Assembly: GCA_945957605.1 (NCBI GenBank)
Contig: CAMFLR010000003.1
Span: 1-64,000 of the forward strand
Length of the DNA: 64,000 bases
Direction of reading: 5' to 3'
Origin: an uncultured Isosphaeraceae bacterium
Lineage (GTDB): Bacteria; Planctomycetota; Planctomycetia; Isosphaerales; Isosphaeraceae
Below are positions 4,356 to 39,728 of this stretch, in pieces (the stretch's first letter is position 1; every line of letters begins with the position of its first letter). The notes under the pieces were generated by a model. The model ran no database searches. It saw only the letters and a list, made by a program, of their open reading frames with translations, and had not been told where the DNA came from. The translations under genes were made by a program, and so were the position numbers.

Positions 4356-6107
4356 CTACTTCGCCGCCGTTTTCACTTCGGCGAGATGATCGGCCACCGG
4401 GCCGAGCACCACCGCCGGCATGAACGAAAGCGCGCCCACCAGCAGCACAGTGCCGACCAGCATCCCCGCGAATGTCAGGTTGTCGGTCCTCAGCGTGCCG
4501 GTCGTTTCGGGTACGCGCTTTTTCTGTGCCAGACAACCGGCGACGGCGAGCGGCAAGATCAACGCAGGGAAGCGGCCAAGCAGCAGGACGATTCCCGTCG
4601 CGATATTCCACGCGGGGTTGTTATCACCCAGACCTTCAAAGCCCGATCCGTTGTTCGCCGCGGCCGAGGTGAACTCGTAGAGAATCTCACTGAACCCGTG
4701 CGAGCCCGGGTTAGCCACGGTTTTCTGGCCCCACTCGGTCGCCGCGAACAGTCCCGCGCCCACGCAAATCAGCAGCGGATGGAAGAGAACGGCGATCATC
4801 GCCAGCTTCACTTCCTTCGCCTCAACCTTCTTGCCGAGATACTCTGGCGTGCGGCCGACCATCAGCCCGGCAATGAACACGGCGATGATCACATACATCA
4901 GCATGTTCTCGAAACCCGCGCCGATGCCGCTGAACACAACGTTCAGCATCATCAGCGTCATGGGCACCGCGCCGGCGATGGGATTCAGACTATCGTGCAT
5001 GCTGTTGACCGAGCCGTTTGAAGTGGCCGTCGTAATCGACGCCCACGTCGCCGAGGCGACCGGTCCGAAGCGCACCTCTTTCCCTTCCATGTTCGGCGAC
5101 ACCGCCACCGGCAAATCTCTGACTGCCGCACTTGGGGCCATCTCCGCGTTGACGCCTACAATCAACCCCACAACAAGCAGCGCGAGCATCACGCCGTAAA
5201 GCACGAGCGCGTGCTTCAGGTTCCTGAGCATGAAGCCAGCCATGATCATCGAGGCCATCGGCAACATGACGATCGACACGATCGACAGCATATTGCTCCA
5301 CGGGCTAGGATTCTCGAACGGATGCGTCGAGTTCGGCCCGAAGAAGCCGCCACCGTTCGTTCCCGCCTGCTTGATGGCGACCAATGCAGCGACCGGACCG
5401 CGTGCAATCGTTTGAGTTGAAGCACCATCAAGTGTCGTCGCCGTCGCCGCACCCTCGAAAGTCATCGGCACGCCGGTGCCAACAAGCAGCACAGCAACAA
5501 TGAGGCAATAAGGCATGATCACCGACGCAAGCCCGCGGAACAGGTCGGCATAAAAATCACCGAGATCCTTGTCGCCTCGCAATCCGCGAAGCGTCGCGAG
5601 CATCACACACAAGCCCGACGCAGGCGTGACGAACATCAGCCAGACAATCGCCGCAAGCTGCGAAAAGTAGCTTAGATGCTGCTCGCCTGAGTAATGCTGC
5701 AAGTTCGTGTTGGTGACGAACGAGCAAACCGTGTTGAACACGACGCCTGTGTCTGCACCGGGGTGATCGTCATCACCAATCTTGTAGCCCAATTCGCCGA
5801 GAGAACCCTTGTGATCGGGGTTCAGCGCGGGAATTTTGTGCTGTGTGTAAAGCAGCGCGAACGTGATGACGAACAGCGCGAGGTTGAACGTCAGCATCGA
5901 AAATGCATAGCGCTTCCAACTCATTCCCACCGGCGTCTTGCGCCCGAGCAAGCGAAGCAAAAGCATCGGAATCGCGTCGAATCCCTTGCCCGCATTGGCC
6001 GCGCTAATATCAAGCGCGCGGAACATCAGCCATCCCAGCGGAAAAGAAAGCACGATCGGTATGGCGAGCGCCCACGCGGGGTGTAGCCAGGTGAGTGTCG
6101 AATCCAC
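4356..6107 (-). CDS. kdpA: K+-transporting ATPase subunit A (channel)
   Basis: KdpA is the K+-selective channel-like subunit of KdpFABC. The 583-residue product has about ten membrane helices and the family's selectivity-filter regions: [39 protein letters not shown], and near the C-terminus [14 protein letters not shown]. The start is a GTG at 6107 behind GGAGAG with 8-nt spacing. It lies 27 bp after kdpF. Length and motifs are normal, so the pump should be functional. Confidence 0.97.
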
Positions 6108-32263: not shown

Positions 32264-35200
32264 TCAGTCGGTGTCGATCGCAAAAACCTGAATGAATCCG
32301 GTTTTCGTGCGATTTCCGCCACCCACCACAACGGCTCGACCATCAGGTGAGAACGCGACGGTTTCAGGGTTGGACCAAATCCCGCCATGGGTCAGGTCGA
32401 AAACTTCCTTGCCTGTCGCAGCGTCGTAGACTTTTATGTTCAAACGCATGCCGCCGCAAGCGGCGAGTCGCTTGCCATCGGTGGAGAACTGAACCGACGT
32501 TGGGTCGACGTGGTTGATTTCGAGCTGCGTGATGCGAGAGGTAATCGCTCCAGTTTGTTCGGAAATCTCGACGCCTTTGTTGCGTCCACCGGCGAGTTTT
32601 TTGCCGTCGGGCGAGAGTGCGAGTGCGCGATAAGAGCTATTCATCGTGGTGGGATCGTCGGGGATGCGGTAGTCGCCGCGTGCTTCGCCAGCGGGCGACC
32701 AGAGACGCACGACCCCTTCCGATCCAGCGGTCCGGAAGGCTGAGCCATCGGCCAGCCAGGTAATCGCGCGAATTGCACAAAGCCCGAAGCTGGTGTCAAC
32801 AGTGACTTCGCGCAGCATGGTCCTCGTGTCGAGATTCCACATGATCACGCTGGGGCCGTATCCGCCGCTGACGAGCGTTTTGCCGTCGGGCGAGACTGCG
32901 AGTGTGAGCACTGCTTGCGTGTGGCCTTTCAGCCGATGCGTCAATCGCGCAGAGGCGACATCCCAGACTTCGAGGTCGACGGGGTGATCGTGATGATTCG
33001 CATCGCTAAAGTTTGACACGAGTGATTTGCCATCGGGCAGGAATTGCAGGCTGCAAGCCCATCCCGAGTCATTCAAAATCTTGCCGACGCGGGGGAGCGT
33101 TGATTTGAGCGAACCATTCGTCAAGTCGTAGATGCGAATATCACCACTTTCGCATCCGGCAGCGACCAATTTGCCATCGGGCGAAACCGCAATTTGCAGC
33201 ACGGCCTCTCCAGCGATTTCGATCGATCGCGCGGGCTCGGGAAACAACGAGGAAATGCGTGATTTCGCGCCTGACGACGCGGATTTGGACCGAATGGTGA
33301 CCATCTCTTCGAGCGGTTGCTGGCCGGGAAGTGCGCGAGATTCGCTGAGCGGAGAGGGTGACGGCGGCTTGATCTCGGTTGGTTTTGGATTTTGAGGAGG
33401 CGCCTGCGATTGAAGTGATTTCAGCTCGGCTTGCAGGCGAGCGATTTCCTTTTGAATATCGTCGATTTTCTTCTCGGTGTCGGGGTTCTTCGACAGCGGG
33501 CCGTAGAGCTTGTGATAGTAATCGAGGAGGTTTTGATGTTTCTTCTGCCGCTCTTCATAGAATGCTTTCCTGTTAATCAGGAATTTATCGTCGCCGCTAC
33601 GGGCTACACTCTTCGCTCTCTTGTAGATCGCAGATGCCGTATCTAATTCAGCTTTCGATTTCTCGAGTTTGCCCTCGATATCTTTGACGCCGGGACAGTC
33701 GAGCAACTTTCCCTTGTCATCTTCCAGTCGCGCGTTGGGAGCTTGATGACAGTCTATGCATGCCGACTTGTTAATTGGCGCGTTCGCAAGTCCCTGATGG
33801 TTTGAAAGTAGAAACTGCAGACCACGAATGGACGCTTCTACCTGGGCGGCGTCGCGTCGGACAAGCGGATCGGCGAGCTGATCTCCGGCCGCTCCTGGCT
33901 GAAGCGCGACGATGAGCTTCACGTCGATTTGAATCAGCGCCGAGATTTTGAGCTCAAGCCCGTCTGGAATCTTGGTTGATTTCTTGAGGCGACCGAGGCT
34001 TGCGGAAAATGCAGTAAGGTCGCGCGGTGGGTTCAGAGCGGTTCCGGATATGGCTTCGACAACCGCGTCGCCGATGGTCATTCCGGGCTTTGCGTCGGCG
34101 GCGTTCGCAGCGAGATCGAAGACGATTTGATACTCGCGATGAACTCTATCAAGCTCGAGCTCCACAGGCTTGATCGCTTGCACGATCGCTGCCTGATCGA
34201 AGACGATTTTTGTTGCGTTTGGATCGTTCCTCCCGTTCGAGGATCCGTCGAACCAAAGCACAAGCGGAGTCTTATCGTTGGGCTTGCGATCGTCGGAGAT
34301 CGCAGTCGTCCATTCGTCGCGGAACCGAAGCCACTGGCGTTCGATTTTGTCGAGTTCGTCAACAATTTGTTCGACGTGAGCGGTCGGGGAGAGCTTGAGC
34401 GAAGCACGAACGGTGGCATCGCGCGAACCAAAGCGCCTGAGATCAGCGCCCAGGCCGCGGAGCCGCACGAGATCCCCTTTCAACGATTCGATGCGGGTGA
34501 TGGCAGACGATTTCGCTCCGCCCTGTTGCGCCGATTTTGCCGCAAGCTGGCTGATTACCTGGTTGGCCTGTTCATGCTCCACGATGTAAAGCTGCTGAAG
34601 TGCGATATCGAGCGTGCTCATCGATTTGGTCGTATTCGTCCGGAGACGGACGATGGTGTCGGCCATTGACTCGAACGCTGGAAGTTGACCGCCTTTGATT
34701 TCCCGCCCCGCGGCGATGAAGGCGTCGACCGTTGAAATCTTCGGCTGCTTTTCCGCCAGGGCGGCCATGTGTCGAAACACAACTTGCAGTTCTTGATGTA
34801 GACGGACGAATTGCATTTCGAGCGTTTCAAACTCGCGAATTGCAACGTCGAGCGTGGGGTCTGTCGCACTTGCTTTTCGCAGCCGCGACCCGATATTGAT
34901 GACGAGTCGTTCGGAATCGCATGTCAAAAAGAACACCTCGGCCAATTTGTCGGCAATTGTTTTGCGATCGGCCGCGGGTACCTGAACCAATTGCGAGAGT
35001 TGCGAACCGCGCTCCGTGATTTGACCGAGCTTGTCTTTGAGGCCGTTAACGATTCGATTGAGCGCGTCGAGGTTGAATGGGTCGGAACCTGGCGGTGATT
35101 TCGCTATCGGCTCTGACTTCGCAGGGCTGGCAAAAGGATCGCGCTTGGCGGCGTCGAGCTCGACCTTGTTCTTCAAAAAGCTCTGGAAATCAGCCTCGAA

Positions 35201-36859
35201 TTGCTTCTGGCTGACATATCCCTTGAGGAACATATTGCGGCTCCACTCAAGGCGGTCTGCCGCGCGATTAAGATCGGCCTGCGCCAGCGCGAGTTGTCCC
35301 GCCGCCACGTCGTCGATGGGCTTGTTGGTCGCAGGACGAGCTTCAGCCTTCTCAATTACGGGCGCTGTATCGGCCGGTTCGAAACTCACCTCGACCGTTT
35401 CCACACCACCACGGCTGATAGTGACGGGCTTCTCGATTTGCTTGCCGTTTCGCGTTCCCACCACCTTGTGCAGGCCAGGGCTCACGCGAATTTCCTCGGG
35501 CCCTGCACCGGTGATTACGAGATCCTTGTCATCGACGCGCACCTTGATGTTGGGATCATTCACTGTCACCTTGAGCGTGCCTTCCGCCGTGGTGAAGCGA
35601 ATCACCGTGCTGAGCACTTTTGTGACACCCGTCGCTTCCGCAGCGCCCAGTCCGCAAATTGCCAGCAGGGCGATTGCGGCGGCGAGCATTACCTTGTGTC
35701 GCGCTGGACGTTTTTTGGGCGGATCGGCAATTTCCGGCGGTAAGGGGACAACCGTTGGCTCGTGTACATAGGCCAGGCAGCGCGAAAGGAGATCGGCTAC
35801 TTCGGTTGCTGACTGGTAGCGGTCGGCCGGATTTTTGGCGTGCAGCTTCGTCACGATGCGTTCGAGCCAGGTGGGAACCGTGGGGTTGAGCTCGCGAATC
35901 GATCGTGGCGTGTCTTCGCTGACGCGTCGTAACACGGCCGGCGTTGAATCGGCGCGGAAGGGGGCGCGGCCGGTGCAAAGTGCGTAGAGCACGCTGCCCA
36001 GGCTGAAGAGATCGGCGCGATGATCGGCGGGCTCGCCGCGTGCCTGCTCGGGCGACATATATTGCGGAGTTCCGGCCACCACTCCGCTCTGCGTGAGACT
36101 GGCGTCATCGACGGCGCGGGCGAGGCCGAAGTCGGTGATTTTCACGCGCTCGACGCAGTTTTCGAGCAAGATATTTGATGGTTTGATATCACGATGGATC
36201 AATCCAACCGCATGCGCGGCTGCGAGCCCTGACGCAGTTTGAATGCCGATTCGGAGAATTTCTTCGAGTTCGAGTGCGCCGGTCTGGTCGATACGATCTT
36301 GCAGCGAGCGTCCCGACACCAATTGCATCACGAGGTAGGGGAGGCCGCCCGAAGCATCGACGCTGTGAATGGCGACGATATGATCATGGCTGATTGCAGC
36401 TGCTGCTTGGGCTTCTCGCGCAAATCGGCGTCTAGCGGTCGCGCTCGTCGCGAGTTGAGGGGCAAGTATCTTGATCGCCACATGGCGGTTCAGGGCCGAG
36501 TCGATTCCACGCACGACCAGTCCCATACCGCCGCGACCTAGGACGGAGACAACCTCGTAGGGACCAAGGCGGCCGAGGTGTTCGGGGTTGTCGGACGTGG
36601 CGAGGAAGTCGAGTGTGGCGGCGTCGGGCTCGGGTTTGCGCGGGTCGGTGTTGGTTCGGGTGTGGTCGGCTTCGTCGCCCAGAAAACGGCGAGCCTCGCG
36701 CCACCAGACGCTTCGGGCCGCCATGGCATCGAGCGTGCCTCGGCAACTCGCGCAGTCGTCGAGATGCATCGCGAGTTCGGCCTGGTCATCTTCGTCGAGC
36801 CGGTCGTCGAGCAGGTGCCGCAGCCGGTTCGGGTCGCACGGATCGGACGGAATGCGCAT
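32264..36859 (-). CDS. Giant Ser/Thr kinase with zinc finger, CxxCH motif and WD40 repeats
   Basis: This 1531-residue protein has: an anti-sigma-type zinc finger (His32-x3-Cys36-x2-Cys39); a kinase domain (about 100-365) with GRGGMG (108-113), Lys130, HRDIKPSN (222-229) and DFG (243-245); one membrane helix (about 390-407); a PEGA-like beta domain; a long helical region; a single CIDCH motif (1034-1038) that could bind c-type haem; a coiled coil (about 1120-1160); and a WD40-like propeller (about 1200-1531). All parts after the helix should be outside the cytoplasm, where haem attachment takes place. It starts 34 bp after an ECF sigma factor, so the zinc finger may hold that sigma factor. Confidence 0.93.
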   Translation of the reverse strand: MRIPSDPCDPNRLRHLLDDRLDEDDQAELAMHLDDCASCRGTLDAMAARSVWWREARRFLGDEADHTRTNTDPRKPEPDAATLDFLATSDNPEHLGRLGPYEVVSVLGRGGMGLVVRGIDSALNRHVAIKILAPQLATSATARRRFAREAQAAAAISHDHIVAIHSVDASGGLPYLVMQLVSGRSLQDRIDQTGALELEEILRIGIQTASGLAAAHAVGLIHRDIKPSNILLENCVERVKITDFGLARAVDDASLTQSGVVAGTPQYMSPEQARGEPADHRADLFSLGSVLYALCTGRAPFRADSTPAVLRRVSEDTPRSIRELNPTVPTWLERIVTKLHAKNPADRYQSATEVADLLSRCLAYVHEPTVVPLPPEIADPPKKRPARHKVMLAAAIALLAICGLGAAEATGVTKVLSTVIRFTTAEGTLKVTVNDPNIKVRVDDKDLVITGAGPEEIRVSPGLHKVVGTRNGKQIEKPVTISRGGVETVEVSFEPADTAPVIEKAEARPATNKPIDDVAAGQLALAQADLNRAADRLEWSRNMFLKGYVSQKQFEADFQSFLKNKVELDAAKRDPFASPAKSEPIAKSPPGSDPFNLDALNRIVNGLKDKLGQITERGSQLSQLVQVPAADRKTIADKLAEVFFLTCDSERLVINIGSRLRKASATDPTLDVAIREFETLEMQFVRLHQELQVVFRHMAALAEKQPKISTVDAFIAAGREIKGGQLPAFESMADTIVRLRTNTTKSMSTLDIALQQLYIVEHEQANQVISQLAAKSAQQGGAKSSAITRIESLKGDLVRLRGLGADLRRFGSRDATVRASLKLSPTAHVEQIVDELDKIERQWLRFRDEWTTAISDDRKPNDKTPLVLWFDGSSNGRNDPNATKIVFDQAAIVQAIKPVELELDRVHREYQIVFDLAANAADAKPGMTIGDAVVEAISGTALNPPRDLTAFSASLGRLKKSTKIPDGLELKISALIQIDVKLIVALQPGAAGDQLADPLVRRDAAQVEASIRGLQFLLSNHQGLANAPINKSACIDCHQAPNARLEDDKGKLLDCPGVKDIEGKLEKSKAELDTASAIYKRAKSVARSGDDKFLINRKAFYEERQKKHQNLLDYYHKLYGPLSKNPDTEKKIDDIQKEIARLQAELKSLQSQAPPQNPKPTEIKPPSPSPLSESRALPGQQPLEEMVTIRSKSASSGAKSRISSLFPEPARSIEIAGEAVLQIAVSPDGKLVAAGCESGDIRIYDLTNGSLKSTLPRVGKILNDSGWACSLQFLPDGKSLVSNFSDANHHDHPVDLEVWDVASARLTHRLKGHTQAVLTLAVSPDGKTLVSGGYGPSVIMWNLDTRTMLREVTVDTSFGLCAIRAITWLADGSAFRTAGSEGVVRLWSPAGEARGDYRIPDDPTTMNSSYRALALSPDGKKLAGGRNKGVEISEQTGAITSRITQLEINHVDPTSVQFSTDGKRLAACGGMRLNIKVYDAATGKEVFDLTHGGIWSNPETVAFSPDGRAVVVGGGNRTKTGFIQVFAIDTD

Positions 36860-36893: not shown

Positions 36894-37490
36894 TCACTTT
36901 CCCTCGACGTGTTCGATGGTCGCCTTCAGCCGCGCGAGCACGCGGCTACGAGCGATGTACACCGAACCGACCGTTTGGCCGAGGGTTTCGGCCACTTGCT
37001 TGGCGGGCAGGCCATCGACGGCGGTGAGCCAGAACGCGCGCCAGGTTGGCTCGCGAAACTCGTCGCGCACGTGGTCGGCGGCCCAGCGGAAAATCCGGCG
37101 GCGATACTCCTCATCGAACAGCAGCGACTCCGCGCCATCTGGTGCGGGAATCGCTTCGAGGAGGAGTTTCATGTCGGAGTCTCCGCTGCCTCGGGGGTGA
37201 CGTTTCTGGTTGACGAGCAGGTTGACCATCAGGTTGCGGGCGATCCGAAATAGCCAGGCACGAAACGACCCCCGCGCAGGGTCGGGATCCCACTGGTCGA
37301 TCGCCGAAGCCACCGTCCGAAACACTTCTTGTGTCAGGTCGGCAGCGTCGGCTTCCTGAAAACCCTTGAGCCGCGCGAGGCGATGCACGAGCGGGCCATA
37401 GATTTCCAGGAATTCGCTCCATGCGCGTTCGTCACGCGGGTCGCGAATGCGCACTAGCAAACTCGGCCGCGTGATCGGCGTTTCGTCCAT
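36894..37490 (-). CDS. ECF RNA polymerase sigma factor
   Basis: A 198-residue sigma factor with region 2 (DAADLTQEVFRTVASAI, then FRAWLFRIARNLMVNLL) and region 4 (LPAKQVAETLGQTVGSVYIARSRVLARLK, a helix-turn-helix). It belongs to the group of ECF factors that sit beside kinases in planctomycetes. I chose the ATG at 37490, after a GGAGGG box. The kinase gene follows immediately, and its N-terminal zinc finger is a candidate anti-sigma domain. Confidence 0.93.
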   Translation of the reverse strand: MDETPITRPSLLVRIRDPRDERAWSEFLEIYGPLVHRLARLKGFQEADAADLTQEVFRTVASAIDQWDPDPARGSFRAWLFRIARNLMVNLLVNQKRHPRGSGDSDMKLLLEAIPAPDGAESLLFDEEYRRRIFRWAADHVRDEFREPTWRAFWLTAVDGLPAKQVAETLGQTVGSVYIARSRVLARLKATIEHVEGK

Positions 37491-37808
37491 AAACGAATCG
37501 TCCCTCCACAGAGAGACACAACGCACCCACCGAAATCTTTCAGAGATTGTGCCAGAATTTTGGTTTGGTTGGCCAGTTTTGTGAGTTTTTGAGTGCGTGT
37601 ATGCGATCTAACAGGTGCAAATGTTACTTGACTGCATGATAGAACGACGGCAGCGACGACATGGTCTTAAGTGATTTGTCAGCCCCAAGTTTTCGGAGCT
37701 GGTGGCCGAAGAATGGACTGAAAAAAGCGAAGGGTGCCCTGGGGTTTCAGGCTTAGCCCTCCAACCCCAGGCACCCGTAGATTGAACTTCGAAAAAGAGC
37801 TTGGCAGG
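37491..37808. other. Spacer upstream of the sigma factor gene
   Basis: The 318-bp gap contains the promoter of the sigma-kinase pair (not resolved) and the terminator of the YXWGXW gene at its right end. CTGGCAC near 37550 (complement) resembles a sigma54 -24 box but the -12 GC is absent at the right distance. Nothing else seen. Confidence 0.4.
37721..37776 (-). terminator. Rho-independent terminator of the YXWGXW gene
   Basis: On the minus strand a GC-rich stem (arms 37763-37776 and 37732-37746, one bulged base, 16-nt loop) is followed by TTCGC and then six T (37721-37726). It lies 33 bp beyond the stop at 37809. Confidence 0.75.
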
Positions 37809-39527
37809 TTACTTTCTCTCGGCTCGTTTCGCTTCATTGCGTGCGGCGGACTTGGGCTGCTGTGCTCCGGGATGAGGCTGAGCGCCGGGGCGCGGTTGCG
37901 GCTGCCCACCGGGACGGGCCTGGCCACCACCGGGTTGCGTGGGGGCGTCGAAACGAGGTTCAGGCCGCGGGTTGGGATTACCCTCACGCAGTCGCGCGGC
38001 GTTTGCTTCGACCTTGGGATGCGCAGGATGCGCGGGTGGTTCGTGAGGTGCGGCGGCCTCGGCTGCACGTGGCTTGCCGTTCTCGCGGGCGTTGGGGCCG
38101 GCGCCTGGACGCGGTTGGTTTGCATTCATGAGATGTTCGGCCTGAGCGGCGCGTTGACGAGGCGGCGCGGCGACGGGCGATTTGGGCAGATCCATCGCGT
38201 GCGGTTTAAATGCTTCACCTTTGCGAGCATCGCGCATGGCGACGGCCTCGCTCCGCGCACGTTGTTGCTGGAATTGCTGAACCTGTCGCGCTTGCTGCAT
38301 TTGCTGGCGTTGCTCGGCCGCTTCGATCCGCTGGAATCTCATCCCGCCGTTTGCACCACCGTTCGCGGCGATTTTGTTGATTGGCGCGGCGAATGACGTC
38401 TGATGGATGTTGTTCACGCGGACGTTGTTCACGGTCTTGTTGATCGTGATGTTGTTCACAGTCACGTTGTTGCGCGTGATCACTTCCATCTCGCGGTACG
38501 TGTGCGGCGGCCGGGCGGCGATGTTGTTCTGGCGATAGACGTACTCTTCGCGAATCGACACGGCCCAGCGAGGGTTCGTTTGAGCGTATGTCACCGAGTA
38601 GTACGAGTAGAGCGGGTCGTAGCCGAAGCGGCTCTGATGATAGGAATACCAGGGATAAATGCCGATACCCACATAATTGCTTGCGTAATAATCGCCGAAG
38701 TAATAGGCGCGGCAGCTTGGCCGGACGAACAGGCTGACCATCAGGCCGTCGCTAACGATGCCGATCGTCGGTTGATAGACATACGCAGGCTGCAGGTAGA
38801 CCGGTTGGGTGTAATAGACTGGCGCGAACATCTGGCCGCGGGTGGCGATGGGGCGATCCCAATAACCTTCGGTGAAGATATAGCCGCTGGGGGTCCAGAC
38901 GTACTGAGCCGGCACCCAGACCCAGTTGGGCTGAGGGTTCACCCAGAAGCCCGGTCGCCAGAAGTATTGATTGTCTTGCCAAACCCAGTTGCCGGGAGCC
39001 CAGATGGCACCGGCGACCGGCGAGGGGGAATTCGGGCCGTTTTCGAGGCTGGCCGGTGGCGCGGCGAGGTATTGGGCCTGGTTGGATTGTTCGGCCATCC
39101 AGGTTCCGGGCGCCCACTGCACGCCGCCGGCGACCTGATGCCAGTAGCCGGGTACCCACTGCCGGCCGGGAGGAATATTGCGCCAGACACCGCTGATCCA
39201 GAGGTAGTCGTTACGCGTGTCGTCCCAGGCCCAGTAGCCCGGAATCCAGGCGATGTTCGCCCCTTCGGGCTTCTGGTCGGGTGGGAGTTCTTGAATGGGT
39301 TGAGGCGGCGGTTGCGAGATGACGGGGCCGGGCTTGGGGTCGTAAACCACGGGACCGGCGAAGGCTTCGTGAACGGGGCCGCGTGTGAGGACCTGGGCAG
39401 CCTCGGGGGCTCCCGCTGGTCCAGGAGGAGGCGGTGGAGCGTTGGGATCTTGCGCGACCGACGGCCGGCTAACGAGGCAGAGGGAAAGCAAAATCGCACT
39501 GAGAGCGAATGGCCGTCGGTGACTCAT
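37809..39527 (-). CDS. Secreted YXWGXW-repeat protein with basic, Pro-rich tail
   Basis: The 572-residue protein has a signal peptide (to about SRPSVAQDP, residue 26), then at least six aromatic repeats of the W-x-PG-x-W type (WIPGYWAW, WVPGYWHQ, WAPGTW, WAPGNWVW, WRPGFWVN, YIFTEGYWDRP) over about 85-270. A Tyr-rich segment follows (YYFGDYYASNYVGIGIYPWYSYH), then Asn/Val-rich short repeats (NNVTVNNITINKTVNNVRVNN), and a long Ala/Pro/Arg/Lys tail. Proteins with these repeats are common in planctomycetes and are thought to be cell-envelope components. The start follows from the signal peptide. Two TGCTTAC/GTAAGCA inverted repeats lie just upstream. Confidence 0.85.
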   Translation of the reverse strand: MSHRRPFALSAILLSLCLVSRPSVAQDPNAPPPPPGPAGAPEAAQVLTRGPVHEAFAGPVVYDPKPGPVISQPPPQPIQELPPDQKPEGANIAWIPGYWAWDDTRNDYLWISGVWRNIPPGRQWVPGYWHQVAGGVQWAPGTWMAEQSNQAQYLAAPPASLENGPNSPSPVAGAIWAPGNWVWQDNQYFWRPGFWVNPQPNWVWVPAQYVWTPSGYIFTEGYWDRPIATRGQMFAPVYYTQPVYLQPAYVYQPTIGIVSDGLMVSLFVRPSCRAYYFGDYYASNYVGIGIYPWYSYHQSRFGYDPLYSYYSVTYAQTNPRWAVSIREEYVYRQNNIAARPPHTYREMEVITRNNVTVNNITINKTVNNVRVNNIHQTSFAAPINKIAANGGANGGMRFQRIEAAEQRQQMQQARQVQQFQQQRARSEAVAMRDARKGEAFKPHAMDLPKSPVAAPPRQRAAQAEHLMNANQPRPGAGPNARENGKPRAAEAAAPHEPPAHPAHPKVEANAARLREGNPNPRPEPRFDAPTQPGGGQARPGGQPQPRPGAQPHPGAQQPKSAARNEAKRAERK

Positions 39528-39574
39528 GGGTGAGGAATCCTTGAGCGTTGAATGATGCGGGGGGACGGACGCAG

Positions 39575-39670
39575 TGCTTACACGAAACGCGTAAGCATGC
39601 GAATGATTGTAAAATTGCAAAATCGAGCATAATTTGGGAAGTACATGCTTACTCTGGTTTGGCGTAAGCA
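39575..39670. promoter_or_regulatory. Pair of TGCTTAC-N9/11-GTAAGCA inverted repeats
   Basis: Two copies of the same dyad occur upstream of the YXWGXW gene: TGCTTAC (39575-39581) with GTAAGCA (39591-39597), and TGCTTAC (39646-39652) with GTAAGCA (39664-39670). All four half-sites are exact and the dyad centres are 72 bp apart, close to seven helical turns. A dimeric regulator binding two operators, perhaps by looping, is the simplest reading. Confidence 0.7.
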
Positions 39671-39728
39671 GGGCCCCGGTTAAATCGCTCGTTTCTTGTC
39701 GTCTGCCACCAAAAATCACTACGTGTGA

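Follow-up and report, generated by a model that had tools for sequence, protein, structure and literature searches.

A transmembrane Ser/Thr kinase with an anti-sigma-type zinc finger, its adjacent ECF sigma factor and a solitary CxxCH motif in an Isosphaeraceae bacterium

The window, a 64,000-nucleotide stretch of DNA from an uncultured Isosphaeraceae bacterium, encodes a large Ser/Thr kinase (STK) receptor with a single CxxCH motif beside an ECF sigma factor gene. This raises two questions: (i) how might the kinase control the sigma factor, and (ii) does the motif make it a haem-based sensor? Planctomycetes are very rich in Ser/Thr kinases and ECF sigma factors for which no signal is known. 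The kinase frame and its parts are as follows.

32264-36859, (-): Ser/Thr kinase receptor, 1531 aa from ATG
36743-36838, (-): zf-HC2/ZAS-like finger, residues 8-39 (C8, H32, C36, C39; PF13490, 22.8 bits)
35807-36559, (-): protein kinase domain, residues 101-351 (PF00069, E 2.9e-47)
35636-35692, (-): single membrane helix, residues 390-408 (hydropathy and positive-inside rule)
35375-35617, (-): small beta-like domain after the helix, residues ~415-495 (relatives' alignments extend to residue ~495)
33260-35347, (-): helical insert of ~700 aa, residues ~505-1200, found in no relative
34433-35083, (-): helical repeat 1, ~217 aa, without CxxCH
33731-34432, (-): helical repeat 2, ~234 aa, with CIDCH at its end
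33746-33760, (-): CIDCH, residues 1034-1038
32300-33232, (-): WD40 propeller, residues ~1210-1520 (PF00400, E 7.7e-22, and related models)

The first-pass annotation had described a zinc finger, a kinase domain, one membrane helix, a helical region with CIDCH, a coiled coil and a WD40 part, and this architecture was confirmed by Pfam searches and hydropathy. The catalytic motifs AIK, HRDIKPSN and DFG are all intact, which identifies a Hanks-type Ser/Thr kinase. A basic stretch, PPKKRPARHK, precedes the hydrophobic helix at about residues 390-408; therefore, the kinase is predicted to lie inside and the C-terminal part outside. The proposed extracytoplasmic position of CIDCH likewise agrees with this prediction (one helix, positive-inside rule). 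A second hydrophobic peak (residues 968-986), which as a membrane helix would place CIDCH inside, was not read as such because it contains E, K, D and K and its counterpart in the alignment with repeat 1 is amphipathic. The published pattern for Planctomycetota Ser/Thr kinases with a periplasmic WD40 part, with the kinase in the cytoplasm, one membrane helix and WD40 outside (PMC11032199), is the same as in the window protein, although the latter adds the ~700-aa helical repeat insert with CIDCH.

A gap of 34 bp separates the kinase from the sigma factor gene, which is upstream on the same strand.

36894-37526, (-): ECF sigma factor gene, longest frame (Sigma70_r2, 4.8e-15)

A start at MDETP (~37490) is more likely than the start of the longest frame. 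Upstream of the sigma gene, a 636-aa frame (37809-39719, (-)) probably encodes a signal peptide and has numerous WxPGYW-like repeats.

In 45 family genomes, the best kinase matches and the best sigma matches adjoin each other. Thirty regions were read and 29 sigma-kinase pairs were scored by script; the remaining one (L136) did not satisfy the frame-distance rule and was left unscored, and its kinase frame is also without CxxCH. Public genomes gave 78 relatives that could be scored once frames with a truncated N-terminus or no upstream sequence had been set aside; in these, an adjacent, same-strand, related sigma gene accompanied 48 of the 50 kinases with a finger and none of the 28 without one (Fisher P 3.6e-19, related sequences being counted as independent). 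The sigma gene noted beside the kinase at first sight is present, and the link is conserved in the 29 family pairs as well as in these 48 finger-bearing public relatives. Several finger-less planctomycete kinases, at ~59-63% to the window kinase over the matched stretch, are nearer to it than most finger-bearing ones, so that the finger-sigma link is not explained by simple distance. This co-occurrence provides a testable wiring rule, in which the presence of a finger predicts the presence of a sigma partner. The pair of the window itself is not conserved even in the genus as sampled: G001, the only congeneric genome, gave no strong match to the sigma factor (E 1e-20) or the kinase (E 1e-100).

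The finger itself is well kept. Its zf-HC2 match is narrowly above the curated Pfam cut-off (22.8 versus 22.2 bits), and HxxxCxxC occurs in 29/29 family kinases adjoining a related sigma gene, which bears out the originally suggested ligands His32, Cys36 and Cys39; these three are invariant in an alignment of the window kinase with its 29 sigma-linked relatives (30/30). We add Cys8, a probable fourth zinc ligand that is Cys in 28 of the same 30 sequences, giving C8-x23-H32-x3-C36-x2-C39. An upstream ligand followed by an H-x3-C-x2-C finger, with an ECF sigma gene adjacent, is also the arrangement of ZAS anti-sigma factors of the RsrA/ChrR/RseA type, and the window kinase has both the finger and the upstream Cys. 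In contrast to those factors, the window finger is fused to a kinase, and its sigma binding and redox response are putative.

Judged by sequence, the cytoplasmic half of the window kinase belongs to a conserved planctomycete system. The reading that we favour, with a probability of roughly 0.7, is that the protein would be a transmembrane Ser/Thr kinase dedicated to regulating the upstream-encoded ECF sigma factor, which the finger would capture and signalling would release. The N-terminal finger would probably keep the sigma factor membrane-bound, as an anti-sigma domain. A signal may arrive at the outer part, made up of the small beta domain, the helical insert and the WD40 propeller, and alter how active the kinase is; the sigma factor could then be released once the finger, the linker or the sigma factor itself has been phosphorylated. 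Three points count against capture: (i) the zf-HC2 match is only narrowly above its cut-off, (ii) several planctomycete STK-linked ECF groups are predicted to be regulated by phosphorylation, without an anti-sigma factor (PMC8999054), and (iii) the finger-sigma statistic treats related sequences as independent.

The second point leads to an alternative, in which the kinase activates the sigma factor directly by phosphorylating it, as in the EcfP/PknT or EcfK/PknS pairs, and the finger has another role. In these ECF43 systems a membrane Ser/Thr kinase controls the adjacent ECF sigma factor, as is proposed for the window pair, and the mechanism has been demonstrated (PMC13147305, PMC8999054). 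The conserved STK-ECF pairing would suit this alternative as well, and the planctomycete groups ECF59, ECF61, ECF62 and ECF217 resemble the window in gene arrangement, with the ECF sigma gene adjoining the kinase gene. However, those groups are catalogued as phosphorylation-regulated, with no anti-sigma factor, whereas the window kinase carries an anti-sigma-type finger fused to it; the word zinc is absent from the PknS/EcfK paper. The sigma factors also differ. Phospho-activated EcfP has an uncharged STTA motif in place of the acidic sigma2.2 motif (PMC8999054), and ECF43 sigma factors lack the DAED motif, whereas the window sigma factor retains an acidic motif, DAADLTQE. Within this motif D60, A61, D63 and Q66 are invariant in 31/31 family sigma factors and position 67 is E or D; in the 31 sequences D60 and D63 have therefore not given way to uncharged, phosphorylatable residues. 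In a wider set (n=49), 47 sequences have D at position 60, and 47 have D or E at position 63. STK-linked groups that retain a DAED-like motif may work differently (PMC8999054). Because the acidic motif is kept, the sequences favour capture by the finger over phospho-activation of the EcfP type, and the finger, moreover, tracks the presence of the sigma gene. Direct phosphorylation is thus unlikely, and the conserved motif together with the finger would be consistent with ZAS-like capture of the sigma factor.

Under the capture model, the outer part would be the rapidly changing sensor module in a conserved system. Beyond the small beta domain, the outer parts of the family relatives differ strongly in length and sequence, ranging from WD40 arrays to almost nothing, and the window protein has ~700 aa of insert between this domain and the WD40 part. 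The insert consists of two tandem copies of a helical unit with 24% identity (best 35-residue window score of 59 versus at most 45 in 30 shuffles), and CIDCH stands at the end of copy 2 with no counterpart in copy 1. The coiled stretches that flank the repeats (residues 520-574 and 1062-1118) resemble each other by eye, as though a single coiled-coil module had received the repeats.

Searches for the origin of the insert were largely empty. A 501-aa piece matched only itself in 40 genomes, the one congeneric genome included, and with a 200-aa query around CIDCH all matches in 392 phylum genomes were weak (best 8e-5, G122). The G122 match was rejected as a homologue of the insert since it covers only the coiled stretch after CIDCH (residues 1058-1119); the matched protein also has an HTH match. 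A profile of the helical repeat found itself and one borderline match only, and scanning viral sequences with the repeat alignment turned up no relative. The window kinase and its sigma gene form an STK-ECF pair whose outer insert is private. It would appear that the outer part acquired, in this lineage, a helical insert containing a tandem repeat, and that CIDCH is private to that insert.

This bears directly on the proposal in the first-pass annotation that the kinase, if it binds haem, senses redox state or gases through CIDCH. Lack of CxxCH conservation in orthologues had been named beforehand as a refutation, and the motif was found in 0/29 sigma-linked relatives, while the insert that carries it has no detectable homologue in the family or the phylum sample; the proposal is not sustained for this protein. 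CIDCH (residues 1034-1038) is the only CxxCH in the 1531 aa. When the extracytoplasmic part was shuffled with its observed Cys and His counts, CxxCH appeared in 0.08% of cases (P ~0.0008), and 0.098 motifs would be expected over the post-kinase parts of 96 sampled kinase frames of the same genome; therefore, a chance origin of CIDCH is unlikely, though conceivable.

The somewhat better-placed account of CIDCH, and in our view a probable one, is that of a chance or structural Cys pair in an insert that evolves fast; such a pair could form a disulfide or a metal site or have no role. This account agrees with the lack of conservation in relatives and with the roughly 0.1 motifs expected over the sampled kinases, and the CPECH of another kinase frame, L064, which precedes its kinase domain and is predicted to be cytoplasmic, indicates that CxxCH in a Ser/Thr kinase need not be haem. 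It accords less well with a motif far rarer by chance than one per protein and with the cytochrome-like context SACIDCHQ.

The same context, with its canonical motif, is what would recommend covalent haem c. The kinase would then sense redox state or gases, and its helical sensor insert would have acquired the c-haem site by new recruitment. There is a precedent in the short cytochrome-derived CXXCH fragment recruited into Tll0287/DUF3365 Cache sensor domains (PMC12889525), where a single extracytoplasmic CxxCH sits in a signalling protein, as is predicted here, and another sigma-linked Ser/Thr kinase of the same genome has a Tll0287-like domain. In contrast to those sCache_heme sensors, the window protein has no PF11845 match in its insert and its motif is not conserved. 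The CIDCH segment gave no haem or cytochrome family even at E 10 (Pfam, NCBIfam) and no match in a PDB sequence search, and the 47-aa stretch around it has no significant match elsewhere in its own genome; repeat 1 lacks the motif, and the insert has no homologue. Structure models of residues 585-1165 (pLDDT 41.9) and of repeat 2 with repeat 1 (pLDDT 41.5) were both of too low confidence to speak for or against a haem pocket with an axial ligand. Since the motif is predicted outside and is rare by chance, and since a ResB-type candidate for cytochrome c maturation is encoded in the genome, haem binding by CIDCH keeps a tentative place, but both the binding and the sensing role built on it seem doubtful to us. 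That a sigma-controlling Ser/Thr kinase newly gained c-haem in a lineage-specific insert, as a second, independent origin of haem sensing beside the Tll0287-type kinases, is less likely still.

A haem-sensing Ser/Thr kinase coupled to an ECF sigma factor, as had been envisaged for the window protein, does have a candidate in the same genome, as a different gene. In this 8.8-Mb draft (33 contigs), 96 distinct kinase frames were sampled region by region, and only one other, L235, has a CxxCH motif.

L235:3551-5545, = G000:C20 ~127050-129044, (-): zinc-finger Ser/Thr kinase (PF11845, E 8e-20)
L235:5613-6251, same strand: ECF sigma frame directly upstream of the L235 kinase

Besides its kinase domain and finger (HVEGCAVC), L235 carries a Tll0287-like domain, within which CVQCH lies, and two hydrophobic segments, the first a membrane helix; its contig, C20, holds the only PF11845 match of the genome. 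From these sequence features, L235 is a haem-sensing kinase candidate with a much stronger case than the window protein. PF11845 searches yielded eight further such kinases from seven family-level and class-level genomes (L336, L337, L338, L339, L340, L341, L342 and L344). The combination of kinase and PF11845 was confirmed by Pfam in 6/6 tested relatives, and CxxCH is present in all nine proteins, L235 included. Over residues 109-660, L336 and L235 share 81% identity, but their N-termini differ.

The finger-sigma rule recurs in this different, more distant kinase group: a finger and a nearby sigma gene (upstream, downstream or divergent) are both present in seven of the nine and both absent in two, L336 and L339, which have no finger and no sigma frame in the fetched stretch. 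By a limited literature check, the combination of a Ser/Thr kinase with a Tll0287-like haem Cache domain may be undescribed, since serine, threonine and Planctomycetes are absent from the main text of the preprint defining the haem Cache family (PMC12889525). Kinases that join a zinc finger to a Tll0287-like c-haem Cache domain and are linked to a sigma gene would be candidates with a guessable signal. As for L064, it is a 717-aa frame starting at 5767 (+) with CPECH at residue 29, ahead of its Ser/Thr kinase domain, where a metal site is more likely than haem.
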